Shown in pieces: positions 10,177-36,655 of a stretch of DNA of 64,000 nucleotides. Position 1 is the stretch's first letter. Each line of letters begins with the position of its first letter. The stretch comes from an uncultured Vicinamibacterales bacterium (GTDB lineage Bacteria > Acidobacteriota > Vicinamibacteria > Vicinamibacterales > UBA8438): positions 3,124,001 through 3,188,000 of the forward strand of contig OY282382.1 of the NCBI GenBank assembly GCA_958295905.1. The letters run 5' to 3'. The position numbers and the translations under genes were made by a program. A model generated the notes under the pieces. That model had not been told where the DNA came from. It was given only the letters and a program-made list of their open reading frames with translations, and ran no database searches.

Positions 10177-10386
10177 GCTGGGAGCTGGGACGTCTTGTAC
10201 CTGGCGACCGTCAAGGCGAGATCGCTCGTCCAAGCCGGCAGGCGACAGAACCAAGTCCTCTACCAGTTCTACGTGGTTCCCCGGCCGGGCCGGAACCACC
10301 CCCGCCTGCGGACGCTGAAGCTGGTCATCCACGGCGGAGACAACGCAGAGCCGGTCGCGACGATTATGCTGCCGCACGAGGACTGA
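10177..10386 (+). pseudogene. C-terminal fragment of an unknown protein cut by the ISKra4 element
   Basis: About 70 residues of well-formed protein (SWDVLYLATVKARSLVQAG, then FYVVPRPGRNHPRLRTLK and VIHGGDNAEPVATIMLPHED) start right at the insertion-sequence target duplication. Joining the flanks in silico keeps the frame open into bases 8240-8298, where only a TTG could serve as start. I do not recognise the family. Confidence 0.45.
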
Positions 10387-10697
10387 CGGGCACCACACCC
10401 TCCAGAACCTCCTCAACCTCTACGCCCTCCCCGACCCCCGGAACGACCTCGGCATTTCTGAACCGCCGCGGCCGCCGCACTGCACACCACTGGGCGCGCA
10501 ACCGCTGCAAGATGAGAGCATCACCGGACCGGAGACTGCCGCCCGGCTCACCCCTTCCAAATCGTCCACCGATCCTGCCGGAACGCCAGTTGACCTGCCG
10601 TGCACCGGCTTACACCGAGGTGCTGATCGAGCCGCACCCGAGGATGACTTCCCACGATGGACGCCCGGGTACGAGTGAAGCGATGCGAGGGATATTG
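10387..10697. other. intergenic gap, no feature seen
   Basis: C-rich on the plus strand, with a continuous open frame that lacks protein character. No repeat or RNA gene was recognised. Confidence 0.4.
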
Positions 10698-11066
10698 ATG
10701 GACGAAACGGTCGCGAGCCTTGGAACCCACATGGAGCTGGACGACGCGCTGATGGAGATCCTGGGCGGCCAAGTGACCGTCCGGGGGCTGAACATCCGGG
10801 GAACGCCCGGCGAGTTGCGCAACGCGCTGTCTGCTGTCGCAGCAGGCGAGCAGCCGCGACGCGGACCCGGCCACCGGCAGGTCAGCGACGCAGCCCGCCG
10901 GCTCGCCGGAACGCTCGCCGATCGGATCCGGAACGCGATGCGCGAACACGGAGAACGGCTGATCGGAATCACCATCGCTCGCGAGCGATCGGCCACCTCC
11001 GCCGGGCACGCCGACGATGGCGACACGCACGCGGCTGCCCCCCCGACGACCCGACGACGACGCTGA
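10698..11066 (+). CDS. hypothetical protein upstream of a ComM-like gene
   Basis: 122 residues from ATG 10698 (GAGGG six bases upstream); an ATG at 10683 is the alternative. The middle is plausible protein (LDDALMEILGGQVTVRGLNI, then AARRLAGTLADRIRNAMREH, a likely helix), while the tail becomes Arg/Pro-rich. No family recognised. It shares strand and base composition with the ComM-like gene 345 bp downstream and may belong with it. Confidence 0.45.
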   Translation: MDETVASLGTHMELDDALMEILGGQVTVRGLNIRGTPGELRNALSAVAAGEQPRRGPGHRQVSDAARRLAGTLADRIRNAMREHGERLIGITIARERSATSAGHADDGDTHAAAPPTTRRRR

Positions 11067-12305: not shown

Positions 12306-12429
12306 TGGTCCGTCACGTCATAAGTTTCGGACAGACAGACTTAGGTCGAACGACGTATTTCTTCCGCATAGGACTCTTGCGGTTCGAGGTGAGTGCCCCG
12401 GAGACCCTATTTTTAATCGTGTCGATGCA
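12306..12429. mobile_element. 124-bp insertion between CTAG repeats
   Basis: Begins TGGTCCGTCACGTCATAAG and ends GTGTCGATGCA, bounded by CTAG at 12302-12305 and 12430-12433. It has no clear inverted repeats and no gene. It lies directly against the mini-element at 12434, so two insertions appear stacked at one CTAG target. Confidence 0.55.
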
Positions 12430-12433
12430 CTAG

Positions 12434-12542
12434 GAGTCTGCGCCGCAGAACGGTTTTGGGTCCGATCTGGCACAATATGTGGCGGTCAATCGCCTGCGCT
12501 TGTGCAATATATGGTGGTCATAATTTCCTGCGGCGCAGACTC
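12434..12542. mobile_element. CTAG mini-element (MITE-like), copy 1
   Basis: 109 bp with inverted ends GAGTCTGCGCCGCAG and CTGCGGCGCAGACTC, flanked by CTAG on both sides. It interrupts the ComM-like gene. Internal text GGTTTTGGGTCCGATCTGGC and ACAATATGT is shared in inverted orientation with the copy at 14755. No coding capacity. Confidence 0.85.
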
Positions 12543-13111
12543 CTAGCGCACAACGGGTTGTTGTTGATGGATCAGCCGACGGAGTTCAGCCGCAGCGTAC
12601 TGGTCGACGTTGTTCGGGCTGCCCGCGGCGGCAACGTCGAGTTCCTGCCACCAGCCGGCGGCCACGCTATCCGCTATCCGGCCCGGTTCCAGTTGATCGT
12701 GACCAGCCGGCACGAGGAAATGGAACGAGATCGGTGCCAGGCGCGCGCACTCTGTGAGCTGTGCGCGGTCGAGATCCGGACATCCGAAGATGCCCGGGCA
12801 CCCCGGAGAACTCTCGTCGAGTCCGCGGAGCGAGTCCGCGCCGCGCGGAGACGGCTGAGCCGCCGGCCGCCGACGGCGGCCAAGAACACCGGATTCCGCG
12901 TGCCGGACGGACCGACGAAGGAGATCGCACGGACCATCGCGGCGCTCGACGACAGCGGAGAGACGAGCCTGGAACACATCGAGGAGGCGCTGGTCATCGA
13001 GTGCACCAACCTGGGCCAGCCGTAGCGCAGCCCCGGCAGCAGGGGAGGCACGACGCGGAAGCGATACCCGCCCGAGGAAGCGCCGGGCTCCCTCGGGGTC
13101 CGGCGCAGACC

Positions 13112-13383
13112 GTAGACGCATCCGGCCCGAACGTCGACCGGATTCTCGACGGCATTTCCACGCACCTGCACAAGGTGGTCTCGACCGACCCCGACGAAGT
13201 GCACCTGTACTGCTACTCCGAGGAGTGCGCCAACAAGGAGCGGGCCATCGTCGAGTGTTTCGCTACCCGCTTCGAAGCCGCCCTGACCCGGCTCCACGAG
13301 GGGTTGAAGACAAAGCACCCCCGCGTCGCCTCCCACTACCAGATCGGGGTCACTGCGACGAGCCGGCGGTGCTGCGGCCGGAC
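13112..13383 (+). pseudogene. IS1634-type transposase fragment
   Basis: An internal piece of about 85 residues: VHLYCYSEECANKERAIVEC followed by a TRFEAALTRLHEGLKTKHP segment and VASHYQIGVTA. The KE-A-RFEAALTRLHEGL and VA-HYQI pattern matches the segment before the C-terminal catalytic part of IS1634 transposases. Both ends are missing, so it is a relic. The rest of 13026-13409 holds nothing recognisable. Confidence 0.6.
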
Positions 13384-13409
13384 GTGCCGAGGCTCTCGGA
13401 AAACACGAT

Positions 13410-14711
13410 TCACGCCCCATTTTCAATGTCGGGCTTCAAGAGTCGTACCAGCGCCGGGTCGAGGTCGGTCGCCCTTAGAGAAGCGCCGAGCTCCCGTCGT
13501 CGCCACTCGTCAAGGTCTTCTAGCCGCGCAACCATTGCCATTCGCTCAGCCGGTGATTTCTGGCCCTGGAAGAGATTACGAGCGACTCCGATCACATGCC
13601 AGCGGTTGTGATCCACGCCGACAATACCGACGGTCACGGCAAGCGCAGCTCGAATCTCCGGATCGTCAATTGCCTGGAAGATGGCCCTACACTGCCCGGC
13701 AATCTTGTCGGTGTAGGAGAAGCCCCATCTTCGGTCGGCGGTATCGTCCAAGAATTGATATAGCAATCTTTGCATCACCGAGGAGTGCATCTTGAGCAAG
13801 GCACTAATTACACTCGGGTGCACGGCCATCAACGTCTGGTGCAAGAGGTCTTCTTCCTTTTCGTGATACTTCGCAAGGAGGTGGATGAAGCGGTCGAGGT
13901 CTTCGGGTACTTGCTCCCCTGGAATCGACAACTGCGCCCGCAGTGCAAGGAGTTCCTGTAGCTGGCCCTGTGGCTGTCCGCTATCAGCAAGGCTGAGGAA
14001 TGCCCTTTTTAGGAGGCTAACGTTCGGGAATCGACTTGCAGGGTCCGGCTTGGTACAGCGATTGACGATCAAAGCGATGGCGTCCGGAAGTTGCGATGCG
14101 TCATGAGTCGCAGCTTCCGAGCCCGCATAAAGCATAAGGAGGATCCGTCCAAGGGAATATACGTCCGCTCGTTCGTCCACCTTTTTTAGATCCGTCCACT
14201 GCTCTGGAGCGGTGTAAAGCGGTGTGCCCATGACCATCTTGCTTTTCGTCAAGAGCGACTGCGAATCGAGCCGCCGACCTAGGCCAAAGTCCGACACAAC
14301 GACGTCACCGTCGTTGTTCATCAGAATGTTCCCCGGCTTCAGATCGCGATGGATCACGCCCTCGGCATGAGCGTATGCAACGCCATTGAGGATCGACGTG
14401 AATATCTTCGTGATGCGGTTCTCGTCACCAGCAATGCCCACCAGTTCTCTCTGCAAGGAAGTTCTGTAGAGAGGCATCACGTACGAAAGGGGCTCGGCGT
14501 CGAGTTGCATGGCGACGACCTTCACCACGTTGGGATGGTCCAGACTCGAGAGGATCTGTACTTCCCGTCGAAACCGTGCGACGGTGTCAGCTTCCTGCGT
14601 CGCCGCCAAGTCCTTCATCGCGAATTCCTCGCCGTCCGTTACGCGCTTGCAAACGAACACCTCGCCGAATCCGCCACGACCGAGAGAGTTAAGTTTCCTG
14701 TAATTTGCCAT
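13410..14711 (-). CDS. serine/threonine protein kinase with unassigned C-terminal domain
   Basis: 433 residues, cytoplasmic, no transmembrane helix. The kinase domain (1-about 255) is complete: glycine loop GRGGFGEV, catalytic lysine in FAMKDL, HRDLKPGNILMN, DFG, and TPLYTAPEQW. The C-terminal 180 residues are helical, with ISALLKMHSSVMQRLLYQFL and a YTDKIAGQCRAIFQAIDDP stretch; I recognise no named domain. Unlike membrane-bound PknB-type kinases it lacks PASTA or TPR parts. The gene is visibly less GC-rich than its surroundings and lies between an IS1634 relic and a mini-element, which points to transfer. A defence or stress-signalling role is possible but unproven. Confidence 0.88.
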   Translation of the reverse strand: MANYRKLNSLGRGGFGEVFVCKRVTDGEEFAMKDLAATQEADTVARFRREVQILSSLDHPNVVKVVAMQLDAEPLSYVMPLYRTSLQRELVGIAGDENRITKIFTSILNGVAYAHAEGVIHRDLKPGNILMNNDGDVVVSDFGLGRRLDSQSLLTKSKMVMGTPLYTAPEQWTDLKKVDERADVYSLGRILLMLYAGSEAATHDASQLPDAIALIVNRCTKPDPASRFPNVSLLKRAFLSLADSGQPQGQLQELLALRAQLSIPGEQVPEDLDRFIHLLAKYHEKEEDLLHQTLMAVHPSVISALLKMHSSVMQRLLYQFLDDTADRRWGFSYTDKIAGQCRAIFQAIDDPEIRAALAVTVGIVGVDHNRWHVIGVARNLFQGQKSPAERMAMVARLEDLDEWRRRELGASLRATDLDPALVRLLKPDIENGA

Positions 14712-14754
14712 ACGCAGATTTTACCATACTTGTGGATTCGTTTACCAGCCCGAG

Positions 14755-14871
14755 CTAGGAGTCTGCGCCGCAGGAAATCCTGACTACTATATGTTGTGCA
14801 AGCTCCGGCGACCGACCGCTACATATTGTGCCAGATCGGACCCAAAACAGTTCTACGGCGCAGACTCCCAG
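14755..14871. mobile_element. CTAG mini-element, copy 2
   Basis: About 117 bp, inverted relative to copy 1: CTAGGAGTCTGCGCCGCAGG at the left, ACGGCGCAGACTCCCAG at the right, with the shared core CCAGATCGGACCCAAAAC. It sits 44 bp upstream of the kinase start, so it may carry or disrupt that gene's promoter. Confidence 0.85.
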
Positions 14872-14878
14872 CGCTCAA

Positions 14879-16539
14879 TCACAGTTGACACAGGCAGGGG
14901 TGCGTGTAGAACGGATGCATGCGAATTGGTCTGCGGGTTTTGCGGCCGGAGACGGTGGAGTGGTTGCGCGGGGCGTTGGGGGCCGGGGAACTGTCGCGGG
15001 CTGCGCTGGGGCGTGAGTTGTGCGAGCGGGACGGGTGGCGCAACCCGCGGGGGGCGTTGTGCACGGCCTCGGCGCGCAAGGCGCTGCCGGAGCTGGCGGC
15101 GGCGTTGGGGTTGGGGCTGCCGCCCGCGCAATCGGGTCCGCCGCGTCGCGGTTGCGGTCCGTCGGCGTACGGGTCGCGGTTGCCGCTGACGGAATTCTGC
15201 GGCAGCTTGTCGTCGTTGGGGGCGGTCGATGTTCGGGTGGCGGAAACGGCGGCGGAGCGCCGGTTGTGCGGTCATCTGCTGGCGGCGTGCCATCCGCGGG
15301 GTCGGGGTCGTGCGCCGGGGTGCCGTCTGACGTATGTGCTGGAAGCGTCGTCGGGGGTGCTGGGTGTTCTGAGCTTCGTGTCGGCGCCGTTGCGGTTGGG
15401 TCCCCGCGACGCGCACCTGGGTTGGGACGACCGGACGCGGGGTGCTCACATCGGGCGGGTGGTTCCAACGACCGTTTTCCGCTGTTGCCCGGGGTTCGGG
15501 TGCCGCACCTGGCCTCGCACGTGTTGGGGCGGGCGGCGGGTCGTCTGGCGTCGGACTGGGAAGCGCGGCACGGGGTTGGGCCGGTGTTGGTGGAAACGTG
15601 CGTGGAGGCGTTCCGTCCGGCGACGAGCTACCGGGCGGCGGGCTGGCGGTGCGTGGGCCGGACGTCGGGTTTGCCGCCGGGGGCGTCGGCGCCGGTGGCG
15701 CCGAAGGGGGTGTGGCTGCGGGGCTTGGCGGCCGATTGGGAGGAGAGGCTGCGGCGGGCGCCGTTGCGGGCGCCGGGGTCTTTTCCGGCGCTTTCGGGGG
15801 AAGCCGAGCCGTGTTGGTCGCGGCGCGAGTTCGGGCGTTCGGACTTGGTCGACGGGCGTTTGCGGTCGCGGTTGGTGCGGTTGGGGGCGGGCTGGGAGCG
15901 GCATCCGGGGGAGCCGCTGCCGGCGATTTTCCCGGGCAGTGCCGAGCAACAGGCAGCGTATCGTTTCCTGCACAATAGCAAGGTGGACAGCGAGGACATC
16001 CTGCAACCGCACCGGGAGGCGCTGGTGGAGCGCTGCCGGTTGGCGTCGACGGTGCTGCTGGTGCAGGACACGACGACGCTGAACTACACGGGTCTGCGGG
16101 AGAGCACGGCGGGGTTGGGACCGCTTCGGGAGCGGACGGGCAGCGCGCGGGGTCTGTTCGTGCATGCGGCGGTGGTGTTCACCGAGGGCGGGCGGCCGGT
16201 GGGGGTGAGCGGGCTGGAGACGTGGGCGCGGCCGGAAGTGGAACCGGCGGCGGAACTTGAGAAGGAGAGTCGGCGCTGGTTCCGGGGCTTCGATCAGGGC
16301 CGGGCGTTGGGGCGGGCGAGTCCCGGGACGCGGGTGGTGGTGGTCGGGGACCGGGAGAGCGACATTTACGAGTTGTTGAAGTGGCAGGCGGCGCATGCGG
16401 ACGAGGCGGGGCTGGTGGTGCGGGCGAACGCGGGCCGGCGGCGGCGGGTGGAGGCGAAGCCACGCGGGCACCGTAGAACCGTCGAGCGGTTTCGCCGTGC
16501 AGTCCGCATGCCGGCAACCCGCTCCTGTGTCAACTGTGA
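14879..16539 (+). mobile_element. decayed IS4-type element with DruA-like transposase
   Basis: Bounded by 16-bp inverted repeats TCACAGTTGACACAGG (14879-14894) and CCTGTGTCAACTGTGA (16524-16539). It lies between mini-element copy 2 and a half copy at 16541. No target duplication is visible. The transposase is frameshifted and shortened, so the element cannot move on its own. Confidence 0.8.
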
Positions 16540-16570
16540 CCTAGGAGTCTGCGCCGCAGAACGGTTTTGA
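14919..16570 (+). pseudogene. IS4 transposase with N-terminal DUF4338 domain, frameshifted and truncated
   Basis: The N-terminal part has AAERRLCGHLLAACHPRGRG and PRDAHLGWDDRTRGAHIGRV, diagnostic of DUF4338 (the DruA domain). The frame breaks near 15473, where GTGGTTCC needs one more base; it resumes as NDRFPLLPGVRVPHLASHVL and AFRPATSYRAAGWRCVG. The catalytic half follows: EQQAAYRFLHNSKVD, VLLVQDTTTLNYT (first Asp) and VVVVGDRESDIYELLKW (second Asp). It ends at VVRANAGRRRRVEAKPRG, so the last part with the catalytic Glu is missing. The frame then runs out of the element into the half mini-element and stops at 16570. Confidence 0.85.
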
Positions 16571-16585
16571 GTCCGATTTGGGCGG
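16541..16585. mobile_element. half copy of the CTAG mini-element
   Basis: CTAGGAGTCTGCGCCGCAGA, then ACGGTTTTGAGTCCGATTTG, matches the left half of copy 1. The other half is absent. It abuts the right end of the IS4-type element. Confidence 0.75.
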
Positions 16586-16742
16586 GGGGAAGCTGGGGGC
16601 GGGCGGGTTTGGCGTGACGTACCCTGGCGTACGACCGGTTGCCGGACCGGCGGGTGGCCTTCCCAGACCCGGTCGACTCGAACTCGAGTCGCGCCCGCTG
16701 ACCGCCGGCTCCGGATGCGCAGGACGAATGGGCGTCAATTGC

Positions 16743-18401
16743 CTACCGGCGCGCACCCGGGCCGACCGGCTCGTCCGGATACAACTTCGTGTCGGATCCC
16801 AGCGCAACGATCAGTTTCGACAAACTTTCGACGCTGAACCCGGTTCGGCTTTCGGCCAAGTAGGTACTTGCGCCCAGCGATCGAACCGTTGCATGCGAGC
16901 CGAGCGCCCGTGAAATCCGCTCCGCAACTTCACCAGCTCGCATCGTCATCGCGTCCGCGCCGCCCTGAACGATAATTCTCCTCGCACCGGCGATCCCTGC
17001 GAAAGACGCGGGGGCGACGGGTTCCGACGACGATTCCCCGGCGACCGGTTCACCCTGTCCAGACGCAACCAGAGCAGCGAGCGCTCCTAGAGCATCCGGA
17101 AAATGGAGGACGAGGCCGGTCCGGGGATCCGTCGTTCGCTGTGCGGTAGCCCTCAACGCAGACTCGATCCCGTCCGCGGAGGCTGACGGAACTTGTGACC
17201 TGAGCAAGGCGAACAACCCGGCGACGTGGGGAGCCGCCATGGACGTACCGGTCTTCGGCCCGTAGCCTCCGGCGATCGCCGACACGATCTCCGTCCCCGG
17301 AGCCAGAAAATCAACGATCGCTGAAGTATTGGAGTACTCCAAATCGAGCGCGACCGTCTCCTTGAGCGATGCGCCCACCGTTATGGCCGCGGAGATGCAC
17401 GCGGGGGAATTGACCGCGTTGTAGAAACTATCGTTTCCGCTGGCGATAACCGCCAGAACGCCCGATTCCCTGAGCGCCAGAATCTCGTCCGTCAACGGGT
17501 TCGTCGAATCACACGCCACGTTGTGGTAACCGTCGCCGATGCTCATGTTGACGGAAGCAATCTCGTGCGACGCCGAGAGATCCCTGACGTGACGCAACGC
17601 CCTCAACTGATCCGAGGGAAAAGACTTGATGCATGGAACACCATTCGCCCCACACTCAAGGATATCGTTGAATTCCGTAAAGACCTGAATCGATATCAAG
17701 CCGGCGCCGGGCGCAACCCCCGAAATGACCTCACCGCCAACGGAGACCTGCGCTCCAACGGCGATTCCCGCAACGTGGGTTCCATGGTCGCAACCGGGCA
17801 AATCGCAATGGCGGCCCGCGCCCTCCGTCAAGTCCACATCCAGACCGTTGCCGCAGAGCGACGTTACTGAATGGACATCCGACGCGGCGGTGGAAAAACA
17901 CCCTTCCGCTCGAAGCTTCCCGCCGAAGAACGGGTGGTCGTAATCGACCCCGGTGTCTAGAACCGCGACGGAATAACCGGCGCCGAGCACATGCGTCGAG
18001 TGAACCTCGTCTATGCGCAGGGTCTTCAGCGAAGTCCCCAGCAGCAGCGGCGGCACCGGTTCGTCGGCGGCCACGTAGGCGACATGGGGATTGTCGACCA
18101 AGTCGGCAATGCCGCTCCGGTCGGTCTCGACGACCACGACGGGCAGATCGACGATTCGCTGAACGTGACGCCCCCGCTCGCCGAGAAGATCAGCAACGAA
18201 GCCGGCCGGCTCGCTGTAGGCGGCGGAAGACACTTCGCCGAGCTTCGGGGCGGTCATCATGACGAGCACACGTGCGTTCCCGATTTCGAACAGCGTCTGC
18301 TCTATTCTGGCGTCCAGTTTGGATTGACCGAATGCCGACGCCGTCAAGGCCGCCCAGGCGAGCACCGACGCCACGATCCCCCGTATCGTCGAAATGCGCA
18401 T
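16743..18401 (-). CDS. secreted S8 (subtilisin-like) serine protease
   Basis: 552 residues from ATG 18401, which has GGAGGG four bases upstream. A signal peptide (ends ALTASAFGQ) is followed by an inhibitor-I9-like propeptide region (LPVVVVETDRSGIADL) and the catalytic triad: Asp in AVLDTGVDYDHPF, His in DHGTHVAGIAVG, Ser in GTSMAAPHVAGLFALL, with the oxyanion Asn in VIASGNDSFYN. Extra Cys residues (EGCFS, SLCGNG, HCDLPGCDHG) suggest disulfides. The last 110 residues form an extra domain of unknown type. Probably degrades extracellular protein. Confidence 0.92.
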   Translation of the reverse strand: MRISTIRGIVASVLAWAALTASAFGQSKLDARIEQTLFEIGNARVLVMMTAPKLGEVSSAAYSEPAGFVADLLGERGRHVQRIVDLPVVVVETDRSGIADLVDNPHVAYVAADEPVPPLLLGTSLKTLRIDEVHSTHVLGAGYSVAVLDTGVDYDHPFFGGKLRAEGCFSTAASDVHSVTSLCGNGLDVDLTEGAGRHCDLPGCDHGTHVAGIAVGAQVSVGGEVISGVAPGAGLISIQVFTEFNDILECGANGVPCIKSFPSDQLRALRHVRDLSASHEIASVNMSIGDGYHNVACDSTNPLTDEILALRESGVLAVIASGNDSFYNAVNSPACISAAITVGASLKETVALDLEYSNTSAIVDFLAPGTEIVSAIAGGYGPKTGTSMAAPHVAGLFALLRSQVPSASADGIESALRATAQRTTDPRTGLVLHFPDALGALAALVASGQGEPVAGESSSEPVAPASFAGIAGARRIIVQGGADAMTMRAGEVAERISRALGSHATVRSLGASTYLAESRTGFSVESLSKLIVALGSDTKLYPDEPVGPGARR

Positions 18402-18681
18402 CGTACCCTCCACTGCCCTGCGGCCCGGCCCAACGGCGGGGACTGATGTTTGCTTGCTCCCGCCGGACAGGTTTAAAACGCTTGCAGGTTCATCATGACA
18501 TGTCTTCGATGAATGTGGTTTCCGTGCGGGTCATCGATGATGTGCGCTGTGGATACGGTGGAAATCCCGCGGCGCCAACAGGGTCGGCGCCGATCGCCCG
18601 CAAGATTCCAACGATCTGAGCGCCGGCCTCGCCGACCACCGGATGTGGGCGTAGCGGATCTCCACCGCGCGCCGGCCGATT

Positions 18682-25926: not shown

Positions 25927-26586
25927 TCAGTCGGTAGGGTGCTCCGAAGGAGGCGGATAGACCCGGCCCTCCGGACCGTGGCCTCCGAGGAAACGGACCG
26001 CACGCACCAGACTGCCGAAGCACGCCACCTGCGCCGCATCGAGTTCGGCGAAGTCAATCAATTGCGTCATCGGTTTCTGATCCGTGGTCGGCTTGTAGCT
26101 CCTGCCGCGCGGAAGCTGGCCGCTGAGCCAGCCCTTGATGTCCCGTCGCGCCTCCCAGTTCTTACCGTCCCATCGCGTACGAGGCGGGAACCCGAAGCCC
26201 TGCATACGATGCAGACAGGGCAGAAAGAGCACCTCGTACTCGGGACGCAGCAGGGTCACGGCAGTTCGGAACGGGAGGTTGAGATTGCGGATGAGTGTCG
26301 AAATCCCGGGAGCAGTCAGCCTGGGGCAGAGATCGTCTTCGTCGCGCAGCACCAGAACGCCGCCCACATCGCGCTTGCTTCGCATGAGCTCCAGTCCTTG
26401 CAGCAAGCCGCCACGCCCTCCATGGCCCGGTTTCCAAAGATGAATGTTCTTCCAGCGTAGCGTGCCGGCCCAAGGGATGCGCATACCCAGGTGATGCGCG
26501 AGCCCCGCCAGAAGGACCGGCACCGCCTTCACTTCGCCGTGTCCCTCGACGAGGACATGGAATTGCAGGGTCGCCAATCGCTTCAT
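25927..26586 (-). CDS. DUF4276 (Toprim-like) partner protein
   Basis: 219 residues. The N-terminal strand with VEGHGEVKAVPVLL matches the Toprim-type glutamate motif of DUF4276, and VLVLRDEDDLCPRL supplies the acidic DxD. Known members are usually encoded next to AAA ATPases of the OLD/AAA_21 kind. Here the start codon overlaps the ATPase stop (ATGA at 26583-26586), so the two are made together. The expected role is a nuclease or effector gated by the ATPase, which is inference. Confidence 0.82.
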   Translation of the reverse strand: MKRLATLQFHVLVEGHGEVKAVPVLLAGLAHHLGMRIPWAGTLRWKNIHLWKPGHGGRGGLLQGLELMRSKRDVGGVLVLRDEDDLCPRLTAPGISTLIRNLNLPFRTAVTLLRPEYEVLFLPCLHRMQGFGFPPRTRWDGKNWEARRDIKGWLSGQLPRGRSYKPTTDQKPMTQLIDFAELDAAQVACFGSLVRAVRFLGGHGPEGRVYPPPSEHPTD

Positions 26587-27713
26587 TGCAGATCGGGTTG
26601 GAGTTGGAGATCCCCCGAAAGGTAGAGATCGCCGAGGGAGAGCAGCTTCTCGCGGACCGGCACCAGTTGCTCGTTCGACACGCGTTTCATGCTGGTTTGC
26701 CCATCATGGCGTTCGACCACGATGATATGGTCACGTTCGAGATCGGCAACGTCCAGAATGATCGGACTGTGCGTGGTGATGATGACCTGTGAGACTTCGC
26801 TTGCCTGCACGAGGTAGTCATACAGCATGGGGAGTGCGCCCGGGTGCACCGTCAACTCGGGTTCTTCGATGCCGACGACGGGTATGATGGGCTCTTGCAG
26901 CAGCGCGGTCAGCAGGCCGGCGACGCGCAGCGTCCCATCCGATTGCCGGCCTGCCGGAAACCATTTCTTTCTCTTGTTTCTGTCGTGCGGTACGAGTTGC
27001 TTGAATTCCGCGACCAGGAATCCGGCGGCGCTGCTGACCCGGGCGTCCTCGATGTCGCCGGTCAGTTCCTGAAGGCCGGAAATGAGTTCGCCCTTCTCTT
27101 TCCTCTTCAAGAGCTCTCGCAGAATCGAAACCCAGTTTTCGCCGTGCCGCTTCATGGGCGACGCTGAATCGAACGTCTGAGGCGCCCGAAGCACGTCGGG
27201 GAAGATGGAGTAGACGCATATGCGTCCGAGAAAGTCGGCCAGCGGCTTGAAGCGGGTATCCCCGGCGAGCGCCGTCAGTTCGAGAGCTTCGTCGTCCAAA
27301 CGGGGCGCGTAACCGGCGGGACCACTCCATCGTCTTCCTTCGCGCCGGAACTGATGTGTCTCCTGCTTCACGCGTACGGAGGCGGATTCTGATTTGACCC
27401 GATATTCCTCGGTTCGGTCGCCGGTGATTTGAAGGGCATATGTCGCGGGTTCATTCTCGATGACCATCTCCAACGAGATGCTCACGTTGTAAGGGTGACC
27501 GCCGCTGTGCCTGCGAATGCTGTCGATGCCCTCGCGGTGCGTAATGGCGGCCGGCAGTCCCTGCAGGACGGCGTCGCGGATGAAGCTCAAGGCGTCCAGC
27601 GCGTTGGACTTGCCGGATCCGTTGGGACCGATTAGGACGGATATCCTCCCGAAACGCAACGCAATGTTTCGTCCGAGGCTCCTGTAGTTGGAAATCCGTA
27701 ATCGCCGAAGCAT
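26583..27713 (-). CDS. AAA_21-type ATPase (OLD/RecF-like)
   Basis: 376 residues. Walker A IGPNGSGKSNALDALSF at about residue 28, signature-like RQSDGTLRVAGLLTAL, Walker B IIPVVGIEEPELTVHPG, then a His-loop VIITTHSPIILD. This is the SMC/RecF-like ABC ATPase seen in anti-phage pairs such as PARIS and in OLD-type systems. GGAGAGG precedes the ATG. Translationally coupled to the DUF4276 gene. Composition is less GC-rich than neighbours. It lies between the propeller gene and pcaC, which are otherwise unrelated. Confidence 0.88.
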   Translation of the reverse strand: MLRRLRISNYRSLGRNIALRFGRISVLIGPNGSGKSNALDALSFIRDAVLQGLPAAITHREGIDSIRRHSGGHPYNVSISLEMVIENEPATYALQITGDRTEEYRVKSESASVRVKQETHQFRREGRRWSGPAGYAPRLDDEALELTALAGDTRFKPLADFLGRICVYSIFPDVLRAPQTFDSASPMKRHGENWVSILRELLKRKEKGELISGLQELTGDIEDARVSSAAGFLVAEFKQLVPHDRNKRKKWFPAGRQSDGTLRVAGLLTALLQEPIIPVVGIEEPELTVHPGALPMLYDYLVQASEVSQVIITTHSPIILDVADLERDHIIVVERHDGQTSMKRVSNEQLVPVREKLLSLGDLYLSGDLQLQPDLQ

Positions 27714-28997: not shown

Positions 28998-29789
28998 CTA
29001 ACGTGGCGGGACACGGGATAGAAAGCGAAGCACCCCCGCGGTGAAGGCATCGGGTTGTTCGACGTTCGCGAGGTGGGCGGCGTCGAGCGCGAGCAGTTCG
29101 GCCCCCGCGACCCGTCGGCGGATGAACGCGCCGTCGGCCGGCGGAGTGGCGGGGTCGTGGGCGCCGGCGATGACCAGCGTCGGCCTCCGAATGCGGTGCA
29201 GGTCCGCGCGCAGGTCCGCATCGCGCAGGGCGGCGCAGCAGCCGGCGTACCCGGCTGGGGAACCGTCGCGCAACATCCTTCTGAACCGGTCGACGGTCTC
29301 CGGATGCGCCTGCCGGAACCGGGGGGTGAACCACCGGGCCAGCGCCGGCTCGGCGAGGGCCGGCATGCCCAACTCGCCGGCGTCGTGGATGCGCTGGTCC
29401 CAGAGCCCGGTACTGCCGATGCGGACCCCGGTGTTCGCGGCCACCAGGCGGTTCACGCGGTCGGGCGCGTGGAGGCCAAGCCAGAGGGCCGTCTGTCCGC
29501 CGAGGGAGACGCCGCAGACGTGCGCGCGGGAGACGCCGGCGACGTCGAGAACCGCCAGGGCGTCGCGCCCGAGCCGGTCGAGGGTATAGGGGCGGGCCGG
29601 CGCGTCGGACGCGCCGTGTCCGCGGGTGTCGAATCGAATGACCCGGAAGGCGGCGGCGAGGCGGTCGATCTGCGGTCTCCACAGGTCGACGGTCGTGCCC
29701 AGCGCGTTGAGGAGCAGGAGGGCGGGCGCGTCCGCCGGTCCGCCCGCGGTCCAGGACAGGCGGCATCCGTCCGCGTCGAGTTCAGGCAT
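28998..29789 (-). CDS. pcaD: 3-oxoadipate enol-lactonase
   Basis: 263 residues, alpha/beta hydrolase. Opens beta-ketoadipate enol-lactone to beta-ketoadipate. Seen: LLLLNALGTTVDLWRPQ (oxyanion region), FDTRGHGASD, the nucleophile elbow GVSLGGQTALW (Ser), the acid GAHDPATPP and the histidine in DAAHLANVEQP. The start ATG 29789 retains a junction pattern, ATGCCTGA, that repeats upstream at the end of pcaB. Three extra 66- to 52-bp copies separate the two genes. Confidence 0.93.
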   Translation of the reverse strand: MPELDADGCRLSWTAGGPADAPALLLLNALGTTVDLWRPQIDRLAAAFRVIRFDTRGHGASDAPARPYTLDRLGRDALAVLDVAGVSRAHVCGVSLGGQTALWLGLHAPDRVNRLVAANTGVRIGSTGLWDQRIHDAGELGMPALAEPALARWFTPRFRQAHPETVDRFRRMLRDGSPAGYAGCCAALRDADLRADLHRIRRPTLVIAGAHDPATPPADGAFIRRRVAGAELLALDAAHLANVEQPDAFTAGVLRFLSRVPPR

Positions 29790-29965
29790 CGTCGTCGGCC
29801 CGGTCGAGGACGCGCTATCCGTCCGCGTCGGGTTCAGGTATCGTCGTCGGCCCGGTCGAGGACGCGCTCGATGAAGCGCCGCGCCCGTCCGCGTGGAGTT
29901 CAGGCATCGTCGTCGACTTGGTCGAGGACGCGCTCGATGAAGCGCCGCGCCCGTCCGCGTGGAGT
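29790..29965 (-). repeat. tandem copies of the pcaB-end/pcaD-start junction
   Basis: The segment carrying the last codons of pcaB and the first of pcaD (minus strand GACGACGATGCCTGAACTC) appears four times, at about 29781, 29833, 29899 and 29965, spaced 52, 66 and 66 bp. Copy 29833 has ATA in place of ATG. Originally the pcaB stop and pcaD start overlapped (ATGCCTGA). Confidence 0.85.
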
Positions 29966-31321
29966 TCAGGCATCGTCGTCGACTTGGTCGAGGACGCGCT
30001 CGATGAACCGCCGCGACACCCCCAAGTAGTTGTCGGGTGAGAGCAGCTCCTCGATCCGTGCGTGATCGAGATGATGGCTGACGGTGGTGTCCTCGGCGAG
30101 GAGGTTGGCCAGGGGCCGTTCCTCTTCGGCGGCGCGGCGGCAGGCGGCCGCGACGCAGGCGTGCGCCTCGTGCTTGCCGACCGCCTCGGCCAACGCCATC
30201 GCCACCGCCTCGGCCAGCAGCCCGCCGCCGGTCGCGGCGAGGTTGGCGCGCATGCGGCCGGTGTCGACCGACAGCGTCTCGAGCGCCTCGGCGGTCGCCC
30301 GGGTCCCCCCGGCGGTCACCAGCACCAGCTCGGGCAGCACGTCCCACTCGACCTGCCAGCCGCCCAGCCCCCGCTCGTGCTCCTGCACCATCGCGCCGAG
30401 CAGGGCCGCGACGAGACCCGGCGTTCGCCCGGCCGCGGCCAGGGCCACCGAGGCCGACACGGGATTGCGCTTCTGCGGCATCGTCGACGAGCCGCCGCGC
30501 CCGCGGACCGCGCGTTCCGCGACCTCTCCGACTTCCGTCTGGGCCAGCAGAGACACGTCGCGGGCGATCTTGCCGGCCGCGCCGGCCGCGACCCCCAGCG
30601 CGCACCCCAGGTGAACGAACCGGTCGCGGTGGGCATGCCAGGGCGTCGCCGCCGGCTGGAGACCGAGGCGGGCCGCGAGCGCGTCGGTTACGGCCAGACC
30701 CCGCGCGCCGAGGGCGGCCAGCGTGCCCGCGGCGCCGCCGAGCTGCAACACGAGGGCGCGGTCGACAGCCGTCTCCACCTCGCGGCGGGTCCGGCCGAGG
30801 GCGTCCGTCCAGCCCGCCGCCTTGAGTCCGAACGTGATCGGCGTCGCCTGCTGCAGCCACGTGCGGCCGGCCATGGTGGCGTCGGCGTAGCGGCGTGCGA
30901 GGCCGGCCGCGGCCCTCTCGGCGCGCCGGAGATGGCCGGAAATGGCCGGCGCCGCGGCCCGAAGCTGCAACACCAAGCCGGTGTCCAGGATGTCCTGGCT
31001 CGTCGCGCCCCAGTGCACGTAGCGCGCCGCGTCGGGGTCGGCGGCGGCGACCCGCGCGGTCAGATGACGCACCACCGGGATGACCGCGTTGCCCGCGCCG
31101 GCCGCCTCGTCGGCGATCTGCGTCCGGTCGTACAGGTCGGCGTTCGCCGCCGCCCGGATCGGGGCGACGCAGGAGGTGGGCACGACGCCGGCCGCCGCTT
31201 CCGCCTCGGCCAGCGCCGCCTCGACGTCCAGCATCGCCTGAAGCTGCGCCCGCCCGCCGAACCGTTCCCTGATGTCCGGGTCGCCGAGCAGGCGGTCGTG
31301 CAGGCGGCTGTCGGCGGTCAT
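29966..31321 (-). CDS. pcaB: 3-carboxy-cis,cis-muconate cycloisomerase
   Basis: 451 residues, fumarase/aspartase superfamily. Turns 3-carboxymuconate into 4-carboxymuconolactone. Seen: YVHWGATSQDILDTGLVLQL (region 1), RTWLQQATPITFGLKAAGW (region 2), and the signature loop GSSTMPQKRNPVSA with the catalytic Ser. The C-terminus SRRFIERVLDQVDDDA is the part duplicated downstream. Start ATG 31321 is the only good one; the second ATG codon of the upstream frame is in a shadow. Confidence 0.93.
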   Translation of the reverse strand: MTADSRLHDRLLGDPDIRERFGGRAQLQAMLDVEAALAEAEAAAGVVPTSCVAPIRAAANADLYDRTQIADEAAGAGNAVIPVVRHLTARVAAADPDAARYVHWGATSQDILDTGLVLQLRAAAPAISGHLRRAERAAAGLARRYADATMAGRTWLQQATPITFGLKAAGWTDALGRTRREVETAVDRALVLQLGGAAGTLAALGARGLAVTDALAARLGLQPAATPWHAHRDRFVHLGCALGVAAGAAGKIARDVSLLAQTEVGEVAERAVRGRGGSSTMPQKRNPVSASVALAAAGRTPGLVAALLGAMVQEHERGLGGWQVEWDVLPELVLVTAGGTRATAEALETLSVDTGRMRANLAATGGGLLAEAVAMALAEAVGKHEAHACVAAACRRAAEEERPLANLLAEDTTVSHHLDHARIEELLSPDNYLGVSRRFIERVLDQVDDDA

Positions 31322-31426
31322 GATCGGCCGTGGGCCTGGATCGCAAGGAGCATCCGGTTACGATGGGGTGCGAAGGCCGGACGAACCCTATCACACCGCC
31401 GGCTGTAAGGAGCCGTAAGGGCCGTA

Positions 31427-31561
31427 ATGACCCACCACGCGGAGATCCTCGCCATCGAAGGACCGAGCTATCGTCGCCGCGAGGCCGAGCTCACCCGGCA
31501 GCAGTGCAGCCGCAAACGTCTGTCCCGAAAACAGGCAGCCGACAACGGCGGTCAGCAGTGA
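31427..31561 (+). pseudogene. IstB (IS21 helper ATPase) C-terminal fragment
   Basis: 44 residues, MTHHAEILAIEGPSYRRREA then SRKRLSRKQAADNGGQQ. This matches the extreme C-terminus of IS21-family IstB (LLHH...I.GESYRLKEK). Everything upstream, including the ATPase core, is missing, and no IstA is nearby. The remainder of 31322-31706 shows nothing. Confidence 0.6.
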
Positions 31562-31706
31562 GCACAGTCGATGGCGGTGCAGAAATGATCACTTTCAGGC
31601 GCTCGACAACATCAGTGCTTCCCCCGTTGGACCCTTCTTTACTGAACAGGACTCTACCGAACGACGGGAATCCGTAGAGGAAGAGGTTCGCCGCCGCTAT
31701 GCCCGC

Positions 31707-33974
31707 TCACTCTTCGTGTAGCACGAGGTCACCCCCGCCCTTCCGGATCGCACGACCGACCAACTGCCGCACCTCTCCCAGAAACGCAGACGCAGCTTCT
31801 GACAGCTCGACCCCAGGAATGGGCGCGGCCGCTCCGTAAATTCCGCGCAATTCCAGTGCTCGCTTGCGCGTGGAACCTCGACCGGCGTAGCGGTGAGCCT
31901 GTGTCCATTCGGTCAGATGCCGCTCAACGATTCGCTCCATCGCGAACGAGTGTAGCGTGTTGTTCACCTCGGTGCGGATTCGGTTCACGGCGGTAGTGGA
32001 TTCGTCGCCGCTCTTTGCAGGTGGATCCCACCTCGCCGGGGCATCGAGAAACCGGGAGATCGCTTCCTGGAGTCTCCCGATGAGTTCCGCGACAGGCATG
32101 AGGTGTTTGTATTCATAGTTGTCCATGCGAAGCTCGACTCTGCGTGTCAACGCCTTTATTCGAGCCCAATGCTCTTGACTGACGCCGTCCCGGTGTCGGT
32201 ACCCGAGTCGTGCGTTCCACAGTGAATGGAAGTCACCCGCGGCGGACTGCACTGCAAACGAAAGGCCGGCGGGGTCGTAGAGGGGTCTAGCTTCGGGAGG
32301 CGTCGTCGGCGCGATGGCGGCAGCGAAGCAGCCTGCCAGATCCGCGAGTTGCTTCCGCGCTCCGGCCGGGATTTTCGTCGTCGGCCGGTCGAGCCAGCCG
32401 AGCATGAAGCAGCGCCGATCGATCCGGCGCTCAAGGCCACTCACGACATCACCAAGGTCTCGGAGGCTGTTGAGAGCGCTCTTGACCGACCCGACGACGT
32501 GATCCCGTTTCGCCGGGAATCCCCGAAGGTTGTCACCCTTGACAGCATCGAAGTGCGTGAACGCGATCGCGAGTTTCTCTTGGTGCCCGCTCGTCGCCAC
32601 GGAGCGGAGCACAGAGAGAGCGGCGGCCTGCATCGGCTGCTTGGCATTGTCGACGAGCAGTATTACGTCGACAGACCGGTAACGGGACGTGTAGTGGGTG
32701 CTTACGTTCACGACGGATTCTGGAGTGTGGCCGAGCCCCTCGCCGTCGATGAGTACCAATCTAGGGACCTTGTCCATGAAGTCCGGCGCGAGTGGTCCCT
32801 TGACCCGGATGCCCTGAACGAGGGGGGTCAATAGCCGTCCCCACACCTTGAAGTGGTTGCTGGAAAACCACCGAATCTGACGCAAAAAGTCATCTCGGTC
32901 GGAGTCGGAAAACATCCACTTCTCTGGCCAACCACTCCGCTTCGTGAGCTTGCCCTCCTTCAAGTAGTCGAAGCAGGAGAGCACCCGATCGAAGATCGTC
33001 TTAGCAAGCTCGGAGAATCCCGGTAGCTTCTCCACTCGTTCCAGAAGCAGGGCAATGGCTGCCTCTTGTTCATCTCCGCTCAGCTTCTTCAGGTGCTCGC
33101 CCAGATCGTGTGAGAGCTGGGCGTCGGCGGAATCGGCGAGATCGCGGATCTCCTTGAGGTAGGTCCCAAGGTCTCGCTGCGTCGCAGACCGCTCTTCGGT
33201 CGTCGGGAATGAGCCGGGATCCGGTTCGTCCTTAGAATCCTCGTCCTCGGTTGCCTCGTCCCAGTCGCCTTCGTCCGGTACCTGGTTGCTCGGTGCCCAA
33301 TCTCCGAGAAGGTAGCTGAGTCGGAAGCGCTGATCCTTGTGATTGAGGAGGTCGCGGACCACTTGGTCATCGGACCCACCGCCCCACGCGGTCTTGCAGG
33401 CCTCTAGCACCGATTCGTAAATGTACGTACGGATGAGCCGTCGCGGGAAAAAAGTCACCACGGCCTCAAAATCTCCGGGGCTGGTGATCACCTCAATGTC
33501 GGCGATGGTGGTCTTGTTGGCCGATGTCGAGGGGAAGCGGTCGGTTTTCGGATGCGAGCCGATCAGATGGCGCAGCAAGGATGTCTTTCCGGTTCCGGTG
33601 GTCCCGATGAACAGGACCCTGGAATAGCCGTCGTCGGCGTCCGGGAGAGGCATTTCGCCGTCGCGAATGGCGGTCGGGTCAGCAGGAGCGGGGCTCTCCA
33701 TGGGTTCATAGAACGCCCGTACGACCGCCCTGCTGAAGTGTTGCTCGGCACGGGGCCGCTCGGTGATGTTCCAGTAGCTCTCGTCACCGAGCAGGGTATT
33801 CATTTCCTTCACCAAGGCATCGGCGGAGGACTCATCACTGGTACCCAGTCCCCGCCGAACCTTGACACCTGGACGACCCTCGTCGTCGCGGCGAAGGGGG
33901 TGTCGGAACGTCAGGGTCCAGGCACTCCGGCCCTGGGTTCGAGATTTCGTTGCGCTATACCTCGCATCTGTCAT
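31707..33974 (-). CDS. large P-loop GTPase, family unrecognised
   Basis: 755 residues from ATG 33974 (GGAGG seven bases upstream). The N-terminal 75 residues (SAWTLTFRHPLRRDDEGRPG, VRRGLGTSDESSADALVKEM) look like a small DNA-binding domain of the phage-integrase arm type, a weak impression. The G domain follows: Walker A FIGTTGTGKTSLLRHLIG, a switch I threonine in NKTTIADIEV, DxxG as DGEGLG, and a G4-like THFD in AIAFTHFDAVKGDN. An acidic stretch (DWDEATEDEDSKDEPDPG) and a helical middle interrupt the G domain, and a helical C-terminal third follows. No transmembrane helix. It is less GC-rich than the pca genes flanking it. Function unknown; anti-phage or membrane-remodelling roles are guesses. 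Confidence 0.75.
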   Translation of the reverse strand: MTDARYSATKSRTQGRSAWTLTFRHPLRRDDEGRPGVKVRRGLGTSDESSADALVKEMNTLLGDESYWNITERPRAEQHFSRAVVRAFYEPMESPAPADPTAIRDGEMPLPDADDGYSRVLFIGTTGTGKTSLLRHLIGSHPKTDRFPSTSANKTTIADIEVITSPGDFEAVVTFFPRRLIRTYIYESVLEACKTAWGGGSDDQVVRDLLNHKDQRFRLSYLLGDWAPSNQVPDEGDWDEATEDEDSKDEPDPGSFPTTEERSATQRDLGTYLKEIRDLADSADAQLSHDLGEHLKKLSGDEQEAAIALLLERVEKLPGFSELAKTIFDRVLSCFDYLKEGKLTKRSGWPEKWMFSDSDRDDFLRQIRWFSSNHFKVWGRLLTPLVQGIRVKGPLAPDFMDKVPRLVLIDGEGLGHTPESVVNVSTHYTSRYRSVDVILLVDNAKQPMQAAALSVLRSVATSGHQEKLAIAFTHFDAVKGDNLRGFPAKRDHVVGSVKSALNSLRDLGDVVSGLERRIDRRCFMLGWLDRPTTKIPAGARKQLADLAGCFAAAIAPTTPPEARPLYDPAGLSFAVQSAAGDFHSLWNARLGYRHRDGVSQEHWARIKALTRRVELRMDNYEYKHLMPVAELIGRLQEAISRFLDAPARWDPPAKSGDESTTAVNRIRTEVNNTLHSFAMERIVERHLTEWTQAHRYAGRGSTRKRALELRGIYGAAAPIPGVELSEAASAFLGEVRQLVGRAIRKGGGDLVLHEE

Positions 33975-34512
33975 GGAAAACCTCCGAGCGTTGTCTGCGT
34001 TGTTCCGTGTTGTTCCAATGATACGCGCGCTCGGCCTCGAGTGCAACTGTTTCGGACCCAGGGTGTTGAGAACTGCCGAGGGTGTACGGCGGAGGACCGA
34101 CTGGGCGGGCGACCGCGGGGGCGGTGGACGCGGACGGTGCTGGAGGCTTCGTGTGGCTGAATCGTCCGGGCCGGCTGCCTCGGAGCCCAGCGTGGAACTC
34201 CTGCGGCCGTGTTGTCCCGTTTGCTCCGTCGATACGCTTTTCGACGGTGGTTGGTCGGCGTCGGATCGGAGATGGGTCGATCCGATCTTGGATCTAATGC
34301 TGTGTCACCAACAAATATTAGAGCCGTCGGCACTCACCTCGAACCCAGGAGACCCAGGTAGAGTTCCCCATGCAGGAGCGCGGCTACGCCGCCGATCTTG
34401 AGGCGCGATTGGCGAGCACGAACCCGGTGCACAGTTCATCGATGACCTCGCATTCGCGGAGGGCCGCCTTCTGCACGTTCCCGCTCCAACGTCATCGAGT
34501 AGAGGTCCGAGG
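33975..34512. other. gap between the GTPase and pcaG
   Basis: No gene called. A minus-strand stretch at 34385-34470 translates as ALRECEVIDELCTGFVLANR, protein-like but short, with no start, so it may be a relic. No dispersed repeats were found here. The island boundary with the pca cluster is probably inside this gap. Confidence 0.35.
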
Positions 34513-35070
34513 TCACACGTCGAAGAACACGGTCTCCTGCGGTCCCTGGAGGGCGATGTCGACGCGGTAGACGCCGCCACCCCGGGACGTTGCGACGAGG
34601 GTCGGGCGGCGGTCGGGGGGAACGCGGTCGAGGATCGGGTCGCCGGCGTTGGACGGCTCGTCGTCGAAGTAGATGCGCGTGACCAGTCTCGCCAGCAGGC
34701 CGCGCGCGAACAGGCCGACCAGCAGGTGCGGTGCCTGCAGCCGCCCCGGACCGGGCACGCGGCCGGGCTTGATCGTTTCGATGGCGAAGCGCCCCGCGGC
34801 GTCGGTGTGGACTTGGCCGAAGCCCGCGAACGACGGGTTCGGTCCGCCGCCCCGCGGGTCTTCCGGGTGGTTGCAGCGGCCGGCCGCGTCGGCCTGCCAG
34901 ATCTCCAGCAGCGCGTCGGGGACGGCGCGCCCCTTCCCGTCCCGGACGCATCCTTCCACCTCGATCGGCACGCCGGGGGCGCCGCCGCCGCGCAGGCGCA
35001 GGCGGTCGCGCACCGGCACGAGGATGGCGAAGAACGGGCCGACGGTCTGTGACGGCGTCAGCGGCGGCAC
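34513..35070 (-). CDS. pcaG: protocatechuate 3,4-dioxygenase, alpha subunit
   Basis: 185 residues from GTG 35070. With PcaH it forms the iron-containing intradiol dioxygenase that opens protocatechuate to 3-carboxymuconate. Seen: the N-terminal TPSQTVGPFFAI, LLEIWQADAAGR and FAIETIKPGRVPGPGRLQAP, RIYFDDE. As usual for the alpha subunit the iron ligands are not kept. The pcaH stop lies five bases upstream, so the two are translated together. Confidence 0.94.
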   Translation of the reverse strand: MPPLTPSQTVGPFFAILVPVRDRLRLRGGGAPGVPIEVEGCVRDGKGRAVPDALLEIWQADAAGRCNHPEDPRGGGPNPSFAGFGQVHTDAAGRFAIETIKPGRVPGPGRLQAPHLLVGLFARGLLARLVTRIYFDDEPSNAGDPILDRVPPDRRPTLVATSRGGGVYRVDIALQGPQETVFFDV

Positions 35071-35075
35071 CGGGG

Positions 35076-35792
35076 TCAGGTCTCCATCGGCGTGGCGTCC
35101 CGCCCGCGCAGCACGAGGTCGAAGCGGTAGCCGAGCGCCCAGCCGGGCTCGGTGGCGCCGAGCTCGAAGGACGCGATCAGGCGCCGGCGGGCGGCCTCGC
35201 CGGGAACCGCATTGAAGATCGGATCGAAGGCGAGGAGGGGGTCGCCGGGAAAGTACATCTGGGTCACCAGCCGGGTCAGGAAGCTGGGTCCGAACACCGA
35301 GAAGTGCACGTGCGCGGGCCGCCAGGCGTTCTCGTGGTTCCGCCACGGATAGGCGCCGGGCTTGATGGTCAGGAACCGGAATTCGCCCTTCGCGTTCGTC
35401 ATCGCGCGCCCGCACCCGGAGAAGTTCGGGTCGAGGGGCGCCTCGTGCCGGTCCTCGGCGTGCGCATAACGGCCGGCCGCGTTGGCCTGCCAGACCTCCA
35501 CGAGGGTCTCGGGAACGGGCCGTTCGTCTTCGTCCAGGACCCGGCCGGCGACGATGATGCGCTCGCCGAGCGGCTCGCCGGGGTGCTGGCGGGTCAGGTC
35601 GTGATCCATCGGTCCGGGGTCGCGGTGGCCGTACATCGGTCCGGTGATCTCGGAAAGCGTCTGCGGGATCACCACCAGCGGCCGGGTCGGATGCCGCGCG
35701 GCGGTGGACCGGTAGCCGGGCGCGTCGTTGGGCGGATGACAGTCCGCCGGCGGACGTCGATACCCGTGAATCGGAACCTTCGTGTTTCTCAT
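35076..35792 (-). CDS. pcaH: protocatechuate 3,4-dioxygenase, beta subunit
   Basis: 238 residues. Carries the iron site: tyrosines in AAGRYAHAED and KPGAYPWRNHE, histidines in WRPAHVHFSVFG. Also the LVVIPQTLSEITGPMYG and TLVEVWQANAAGRYAH blocks of the intradiol dioxygenase family. It is first in the minus-strand cluster. The start ATG 35792 sits at the edge of a triple 112-bp repeat, so the promoter must lie inside or beyond that repeat array. Confidence 0.95.
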   Translation of the reverse strand: MRNTKVPIHGYRRPPADCHPPNDAPGYRSTAARHPTRPLVVIPQTLSEITGPMYGHRDPGPMDHDLTRQHPGEPLGERIIVAGRVLDEDERPVPETLVEVWQANAAGRYAHAEDRHEAPLDPNFSGCGRAMTNAKGEFRFLTIKPGAYPWRNHENAWRPAHVHFSVFGPSFLTRLVTQMYFPGDPLLAFDPIFNAVPGEAARRRLIASFELGATEPGWALGYRFDLVLRGRDATPMET

Positions 35793-36129
35793 CAGCCCGC
35801 GGCGAAAATCCCGCCGCATTCGAGCGGCGGAGCTTCCCGCCTGCCTGCGCCGCCCGCCGGATTGCCGGCGTCCGCGGTTGCGATCGGCGCGATAGGCGCC
35901 ATCCTCAGCCCGCGGCGAAAATTCCCGCCGCATTCGAGCGGCGGAGCTTCCCGCCTGCGCCTCCCGCCGGATTGCCGGCGTCCGCGGTTGCGATCGGCGC
36001 GTATAGGCGCCATCCTCAGCCCGCGGCGAAAATTCCCGCCGCATTCGAGCGGCGGAGCCTCCCGCCCGCCTGCGCCTCCCGCCGGATTGCCGGCGTCCGC
36101 GGTTGCGATCGGCGCGATAGGCGCCATCC
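35793..36129 (-). repeat. three tandem ~112-bp repeats upstream of pcaH
   Basis: Units start at about 35793, 35906 and 36017, each opening CAGCCCGCGGCGAAAATTCC and ending GCGATAGGCGCCATCCT. Differences are mainly indels of CCTGC. Inside each unit GGCGGCGAA-like and GCCGCCGCTC-like arms form a palindrome-prone stretch (CCGCCGCATTCGAGCGGCGG), which could fold on RNA. Confidence 0.9.
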
Positions 36130-36655
36130 TCACGCCTTTGTCAGGCGGGCATCCGGCCGCCCGTGCCGCTCTACGCCTTTGTCGGGCGGGCATCCGGCCG
36201 CCCGCGCCGCTCTCGTCGTGGACAGATGCCTGCACCGTCGGCGAATCGGAGGCGTCCTGCCGCCCGCGCCGCTCTCGGGGCGACGTGGGATTCCACCGCG
36301 GGCGGTGATGCCCGTCGTGCGCCGGGACCTTGCCGGGCGGCGGCGTCCGTTGCCCATGGCTGCCCATCGCTGCCGGGATCTGCGCGCGTAATTGTATGAT
36401 AAACAAACGGCCGCTTTGCGGGTGGGCTCTTGCGCGGCTGGTTTGCCGTTGCGTCGCGGGCGAACGTCGGCGGCGATCCGTGAGACAGGCTGCCGGCTGC
36501 GGTCTTGCGGGGCAGGCGGGCCTCGGCGGCGGGACCGGCTGCCGGCTACGGACCGGGCGGGCAAGGCGTATTGCGATCGGCCTCGCGGACCGATAAGAAG
36601 TACGGGGAAGAACTGTTGGCGGTTCGGTCGGACCGCTTGCCGGGGGGATGAGACA
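36130..36655. other. leader region of the DUF5916 gene
   Basis: Begins with two 42-bp direct repeats (CGCCTTTGTCAGGCGGGCAT..., 36133 and 36175). At 36391-36410 an AT-rich island ATTGTATGATAAACAAACGG with TATGAT at 36395-36400 is the best promoter candidate, 256 bp ahead of the start; no clear -35. No gene seen. Confidence 0.5.

Follow-up and report, generated by a model that had tools for sequence, protein, structure and literature searches.

A P-loop GTPase gene inserted in the pca operon of an uncultured Vicinamibacterales bacterium belongs to a real mobile gene family that is, as far as could be searched, undescribed, and nearly all full-length members of this family carry the same arrangement of paired short sites around their promoter. 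Taken together, the evidence makes it probable, though well short of certain, that the family is a mobile, self-regulated and usually single-gene anti-phage cassette in which a dynamin-like GTPase is fused to its own DNA-binding domain. The gene had been singled out within a 64,000-nucleotide stretch of the genome (hereafter, the window) by a sequence-only reading, in which the upstream operator was absent; this operator is the strongest evidence in the present analysis.

The GTPase gene and its insertion in the pca operon

The gene is an intact minus-strand open reading frame (start ATG at 33974, stop at 31707-31709), flanked by pcaB (29969-31321) and pcaG (34513-35079). The motifs by which the sequence-only reading had recognized a 755-residue P-loop GTPase are all present (GTTGTGKT at residues 124-131, DGEG at 410-413 and THFD at 473-476) and, in an alignment of 16 homologues, are invariant or nearly so, with some members reading DGQG for DGEG. 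The coordinates of this gene and of the associated features are collected in Table 1.

Table 1. Features of the GTPase locus, in window coordinates.
Feature	Position	Strand	Basis
GTPase coding sequence, 755 codons	31707..33974	-	Open frame; motifs kept in homologues of several phyla
3.19-kb insertion between pcaG and pcaB	31322..34512	none	pcaG and pcaB adjacent in same-family genomes
Relic of IS21-type IstB C-terminus, 19 codons	31427..31483	+	tblastn E 0.002 (3.2-kb subject), 53% identity over 19 residues
Terminator-like hairpin, 3' of GTPase gene	31538..31556	-	Pattern scan; weak (3 found versus 2.0 expected in shuffles)
C-terminal helical region, residues 561-755	31710..32294	-	AlphaFold2 model
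G domain, second half, residues 340-560	32295..32957	-	Conserved in alignment; aligned to mitofusin, Fzo1 and 5oxf
Helical insertion in G domain, residues 178-340	32955..33443	-	Secondary structure and pLDDT of the model; acidic residues modeled at low confidence at about 224-258
G domain, first half, residues 113-175	33450..33638	-	Model and conservation; P-loop GTTGTGKT at 33582-33605, FPSTxxxKTT switch
N-terminal domain, residues 1-66, b-b-b-alpha, basic; putative DNA-binding	33777..33974	-	AlphaFold2, whole protein and domain alone; pI 9.5
Operator pair GGAACAAC-AC-GGAACAAC	33999..34016	-	25-42 nt upstream of ATG; conserved upstream of homologues
Putative promoter	34018..34046	-	TTGCAC 34041-34046, 17-nt spacer, TATCAT 34018-34023; by analogy with TTGAC of homologues

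A search for PcaB in 28 genomes of the same family returned a match in 19, of which only contigs covering the junction are informative. In at least 16 same-family genomes pcaG is followed contiguously by pcaB without the GTPase gene, usually across a gap of about 20 bases or less, and the order pcaH-pcaG-pcaB is found in relatives from which the GTPase is absent. Because these relatives keep pcaG and pcaB adjacent, the GTPase stretch is an insertion into the pca operon, as the sequence-only reading had proposed in describing the operon as split. The lower GC content reported for the gene was also confirmed (0.58-0.64 within the insertion versus 0.70-0.78 in the pca flanks), and the IstB relic reported beside it is real but tiny. 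For the 3.2-kb insertion, a search for a target-site duplication and for terminal inverted repeats gave nothing convincing. An IstB fragment also lies directly 3' of the GTPase gene in L083 (3767-4390), a parallel to the scrap found in the window.

The gene is rare. It was detected in 4 of the 396 genomes sampled from the window's phylum, in 5 of 385 from the class of Albimonas, and in 1 of 296 and 1 of 244 from the phyla of Gordonia and Phormidium, respectively, where the lone match is the genome used as centre. These numbers are too sporadic for a housekeeping gene. A housekeeping role and a conserved place in pca clusters, the two outcomes named by the sequence-only reading as speaking against its proposal, were both rejected, since the pca genes of relatives lack the GTPase and the GTPase is rare.

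Two further features of the window were recorded. An AAA ATPase with its partner, matching the PADLOC models HEC-01A (3e-94; 26583-27713, minus strand) and HEC-01B (3e-27; 25927-26586, minus strand), occupies a stretch of reduced GC content some 4 kb away from the GTPase gene, and GC-rich tandem arrays with periods of 52, 66, 111 and 41 are located at 29765-30015 (pcaB/pcaD junction) and 35792-36213 (upstream of pcaH).

Predicted structure and family status

The protein was modeled with AlphaFold2 using 16 homologues (mean pLDDT 81, pTM 0.77). In the model, a small N-terminal domain precedes a G domain whose second half holds DGEGLGHT (DGEG at 32736-32747) and THFD (32547-32558). Structural comparison yielded matches led by bacterial dynamins and mitofusins: in a Foldseek search against the PDB the Campylobacter dynamin pair 5oxf (E 2.4e-5) and IniA (2.6e-4) ranked at the top, followed by mitofusins, MxA, Fzo1 and LeoA. 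VIA-align returned Z scores of 15.3 over 220 residues for mitofusin 1, 14.5 over 237 for Fzo1 and 13.8 over 255 for 5oxf; EF-Tu reached a similar Z of 14.9, but over just 167 residues. Among viral structures, the best match was a giant-virus dynamin.

Sequence profiles join the GTPase to dynamins at the P-loop only. The Pfam Dynamin_N model scored 15.9 bits against the GTPase, below its 27-bit cut-off, and matched weakly in 7 of 16 members (best E 8e-4), while hhalign against the bacterial dynamins of related genomes aligned 28 P-loop columns only, at a probability of 34%. Since the predicted structure matches dynamins whereas the profiles meet at the P-loop, the protein is described here as dynamin-like in fold and as a putative member of the dynamin superfamily by descent. 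Pfam, NCBIfam and PADLOC profiles gave only P-loop-level or partial matches, and no model of PADLOC 2.0.0 matched over the full length (mad8 8.6e-5; LeoA, a member of its defence set, 0.0016 over 25 residues; PtuA 0.055). An already-named family was thus ruled out, upholding the earlier statement that the GTPase falls outside named families, and a search of the mostly open-access literature returned no description of the GTPase family, of PDC-S68, or of a prophage GTPase with a DNA-binding domain.

The closest structural matches are bacterial dynamin-like proteins (Campylobacter DLP1/DLP2, IniA, LeoA), with which the GTPase would share a long helical region behind the G domain. It differs from them in the large helical insertion predicted inside its G domain, in the extra N-terminal domain and operator of its own, and in that no hydrophobic paddle was found. 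A search for a hydrophobic membrane segment was negative, with no 19-mer scoring above 0.91 on the Kyte-Doolittle scale. Mx-type dynamins are likewise not known to have a membrane paddle or transmembrane segment. Protection by a bacterial dynamin has a precedent in B. subtilis DynA, which confers phage resistance (PMC8844932). Eleos and 'Dynamins', mentioned as defence systems in PMC11811056, likewise place a dynamin-like GTPase in defence; the present family differs in that its gene is mostly alone and in that it matched the LeoA model at the P-loop level only.

The N-terminal domain had been called integrase-arm-like. The shape holds in the model, which predicts a three-strand sheet and helix like that of the arm-binding domain of tyrosine integrases; a firm tie to integrases was given by no search. 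Integrase ancestry was left unconfirmed by tblastn against phages and plasmids, in which no integrase was found, by PHROGs and by Pfam, where DUF6538 matched in 2 of 15 members (best E 0.005), and a structure search with the domain returned no significant match.

Paired sites around the promoter

Upstream of nearly all full-length homologues the same layout was identified: GTTGTTCC-(2-3)-GTTGTTCC, TTGAC, a spacer, a -10-like hexamer, GGAACAAC-(2-3)-GGAACAAC and, close by, the ATG. The promoter is flanked in this way by paired inverted sites (GTTGTTCC twice and GGAACAAC twice) in homologues from several phyla, and the starts of paired half-sites are separated by 10 or 11 bp, one helical turn. 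The outer pair of one homologue (L084) is oriented the other way round. For a quantitative comparison, homologues were clustered at 80% identity, and an operator was counted when at least two half-sites, with at most one mismatch, were present within 130 nt. On this count the operator was found in 18 of 19 clusters encoding the N-terminal domain versus 0 of 4 clusters without it (Fisher P 5.6e-4), and the single miss, L017, carries diverged sites of the same type, GATGTTCC and GGTACATC. Shared descent may explain part of this correlation, since the copies lacking both domain and operator are all actinobacterial; the Gordonia copy (L009), which is actinobacterial as well, has both. On an Azospirillum plasmid the sites precede a DUF4258 gene that is the first of a two-gene operon, with the GTPase gene following, as expected of an operon operator. 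We infer from the model and from these data that the N-terminal domain binds DNA and that its target is likely to be this operator.

The sites are specific to the gene. A scan of 2.9 million viral contigs for the outer pair plus TTGAC returned 11 matches, all 11 of them on contigs carrying the GTPase, which makes the paired sites a signature that finds the gene with zero false matches in that collection. In the 6.3-Mb genome of the window a perfect site pair occurs once, ahead of the window's GTPase gene, and that pair is the sole match in the window when up to two mismatches are allowed (0.04 expected). The candidate promoter of the window copy (Table 1) was not called by a consensus promoter scan.

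The window copy has kept the gene-proximal pair and lacks the outer one and, because only the proximal pair remains, its control may be partly decayed. The loss of the promoter-distal pair and the IstB scrap within the insertion would both fit a neutral or decaying passenger, that is, an insertion relic with an already damaged control region. The 755 intact codons, the retention of the family-invariant residues and the 66% identity to L006 speak against such a relic, which we regard as highly improbable.

A similar placement of repeats is known from BstA, a prophage-encoded abortive infection protein with an aba element, in which repeats lie by its own start (PMC8585504). The main rival to the preferred reading accepts the same mobile gene and holds that the paired sites serve mainly as a self-immunity element of this kind, switching the protein off on its own replicon, with the consequence that the carrier prophage replicates and foreign phages are blocked. 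A single prophage-borne gene with short direct repeats beside its start, encoding a protein that possibly reads DNA, reproduces the BstA/aba layout (PMC8585504), and the sites are private to the GTPase gene and vary with the homologue (e.g. GGTACAAC in L014). On the other hand, the sites stand on either side of the promoter core at distances that vary little, as in a transcription operator, and lie outside the coding sequence, whereas aba is partly inside it; the protein is here a GTPase, and its gene is widespread in several phyla on both plasmids and chromosomes, with many carriers that are not prophages. We consider self-immunity as the main role of the sites unlikely, and note that it is compatible with autorepression.

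The same sites bear on a third alternative, in which the protein would be an NTPase that assists transposition or integration by selecting targets in the manner of IstB or TnsC, its arm-like domain binding element ends. The arm-like N-terminus, the IstB scraps beside two copies (window and L083) and an IS21 near L016 would agree with this function; the repeats, however, are on the promoter side only, with no matching pair within 500 bp of the 3' end, a transposase or integrase partner is not conserved, and the fold matches are GTPases rather than AAA+ proteins. Such a role is very improbable.

Distribution, genomic contexts and proposed function

Homologues of the window GTPase occur in different phyla at 36-66% identity. 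They include a paralogue in the same genome (40% identity, G000:C1:5798751-5801012), copies in Candidatus Azophilus (66%), Albimonas, Phormidium, Gordonia and Skermania, eleven plasmid records from Rhizobium, Bradyrhizobium, Azospirillum, Agrobacterium, Caballeronia and Rhodococcus, and sixteen contigs of IMG/VR; no homologue was detected by tblastn in GenBank phage records. The Skermania homologue (L010 9977-12009) lacks the N-terminal domain and its C-terminus runs on in another frame, a change that is due to a frameshift or a sequencing error.

Neighboring defence genes were listed copy by copy, without a matched background. On several prophage contigs the GTPase gene stands alone and reversed between a tail gene and head-tail genes, in a neighborhood of portal, head, tail terminator and tape measure genes; the Albimonas copy comes after genes for terminase, portal and head. 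In Phormidium the gene lies between HmaB and HmaC, in a Hma locus that also contains PD-Lambda-2, and location within such a locus ('guilt by embedding') is an accepted way of nominating defence candidates (PMC12988326). In Caballeronia a CBASS phospholipase and cyclase are immediately 3' of it, and the Rhodococcus plasmid copies adjoin BREX/AbiE, AbiD, a type I methylase and type I R-M. The RecD-like helicase PDC-S68 directly follows the second GTPase gene of the window's genome and the GTPase gene of G005, where it scores 1515 bits against the PADLOC model. The family thus resembles the PADLOC candidates that are embedded in Hma loci or consist of single genes (HEC, PDC) in having one homologue inside a Hma locus and another in an operon with PDC-S68, and differs from them in that PADLOC 2.0.0 holds no model for it. 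No obvious defence gene was found within 10 kb of the GTPase gene in L009 and L014.

Several observations concern the genes that follow the GTPase gene. In L011 and L013, PDC-S68, a protein with a putative C-terminal nuclease, forms an apparent operon with that gene. In L006 a gene after it on the same strand (12417-18614) encodes a 2065-residue protein that matched HTH_upst_double_PIN in Pfam (3e-9) and nothing in PADLOC. In L027 the following gene (10244-10900), a weak match to GIY-YIG nucleases, shares 4 bases with the end of the GTPase gene, which suggests that the downstream partners are exchangeable.

Carriage by conjugative plasmids and prophages, together with a self-contained operator, could also indicate a selfish element or a plasmid or prophage maintenance gene, acting in the exclusion of related elements or in replicon control rather than in general defence. 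Elsewhere, however, the gene stands alone in a chromosome, lies within a Hma locus or shares an operon with PDC-S68, and it is bound neither to a single replicon type nor to replication genes, and a maintenance function is accordingly judged improbable. Defence remains the best reading of the family. The earlier proposal of an undescribed, possibly defensive system is thereby upheld as regards the lack of a curated family, the dynamin-like structure matches and the homologues in defence islands, plasmids and prophages; anti-phage action itself is probable.

In the mechanism that we propose, the product would be a large soluble dynamin-like GTPase fused to a small DNA-binding domain, which would bind the paired GGAACAAC sites around its own promoter and, through this autorepression, keep GTPase expression low. 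Phage infection would lift the repression and trigger GTP-dependent assembly of the GTPase, and the assembled protein would stop phage production, probably via abortive infection. A bolder version, which we hold to be doubtful, is that of a dynamin-type immune GTPase with direct reading of DNA: its N-terminal domain would bind its own paired sites and couple their occupancy to GTPase assembly, combining sensor, repressor, self-immunity switch and effector in one protein.

Dynamin-like GTPases are ancient antiviral proteins, as illustrated by Mx in animals and DynA in Bacillus. If the proposed function is correct, a compact dynamin-like GTPase that moves horizontally, together with a DNA-binding domain of its own and a private operator conserved from phylum to phylum, would constitute a self-contained immune module, and would open to test the standing question of how bacteria silence potentially toxic defence proteins until infection.
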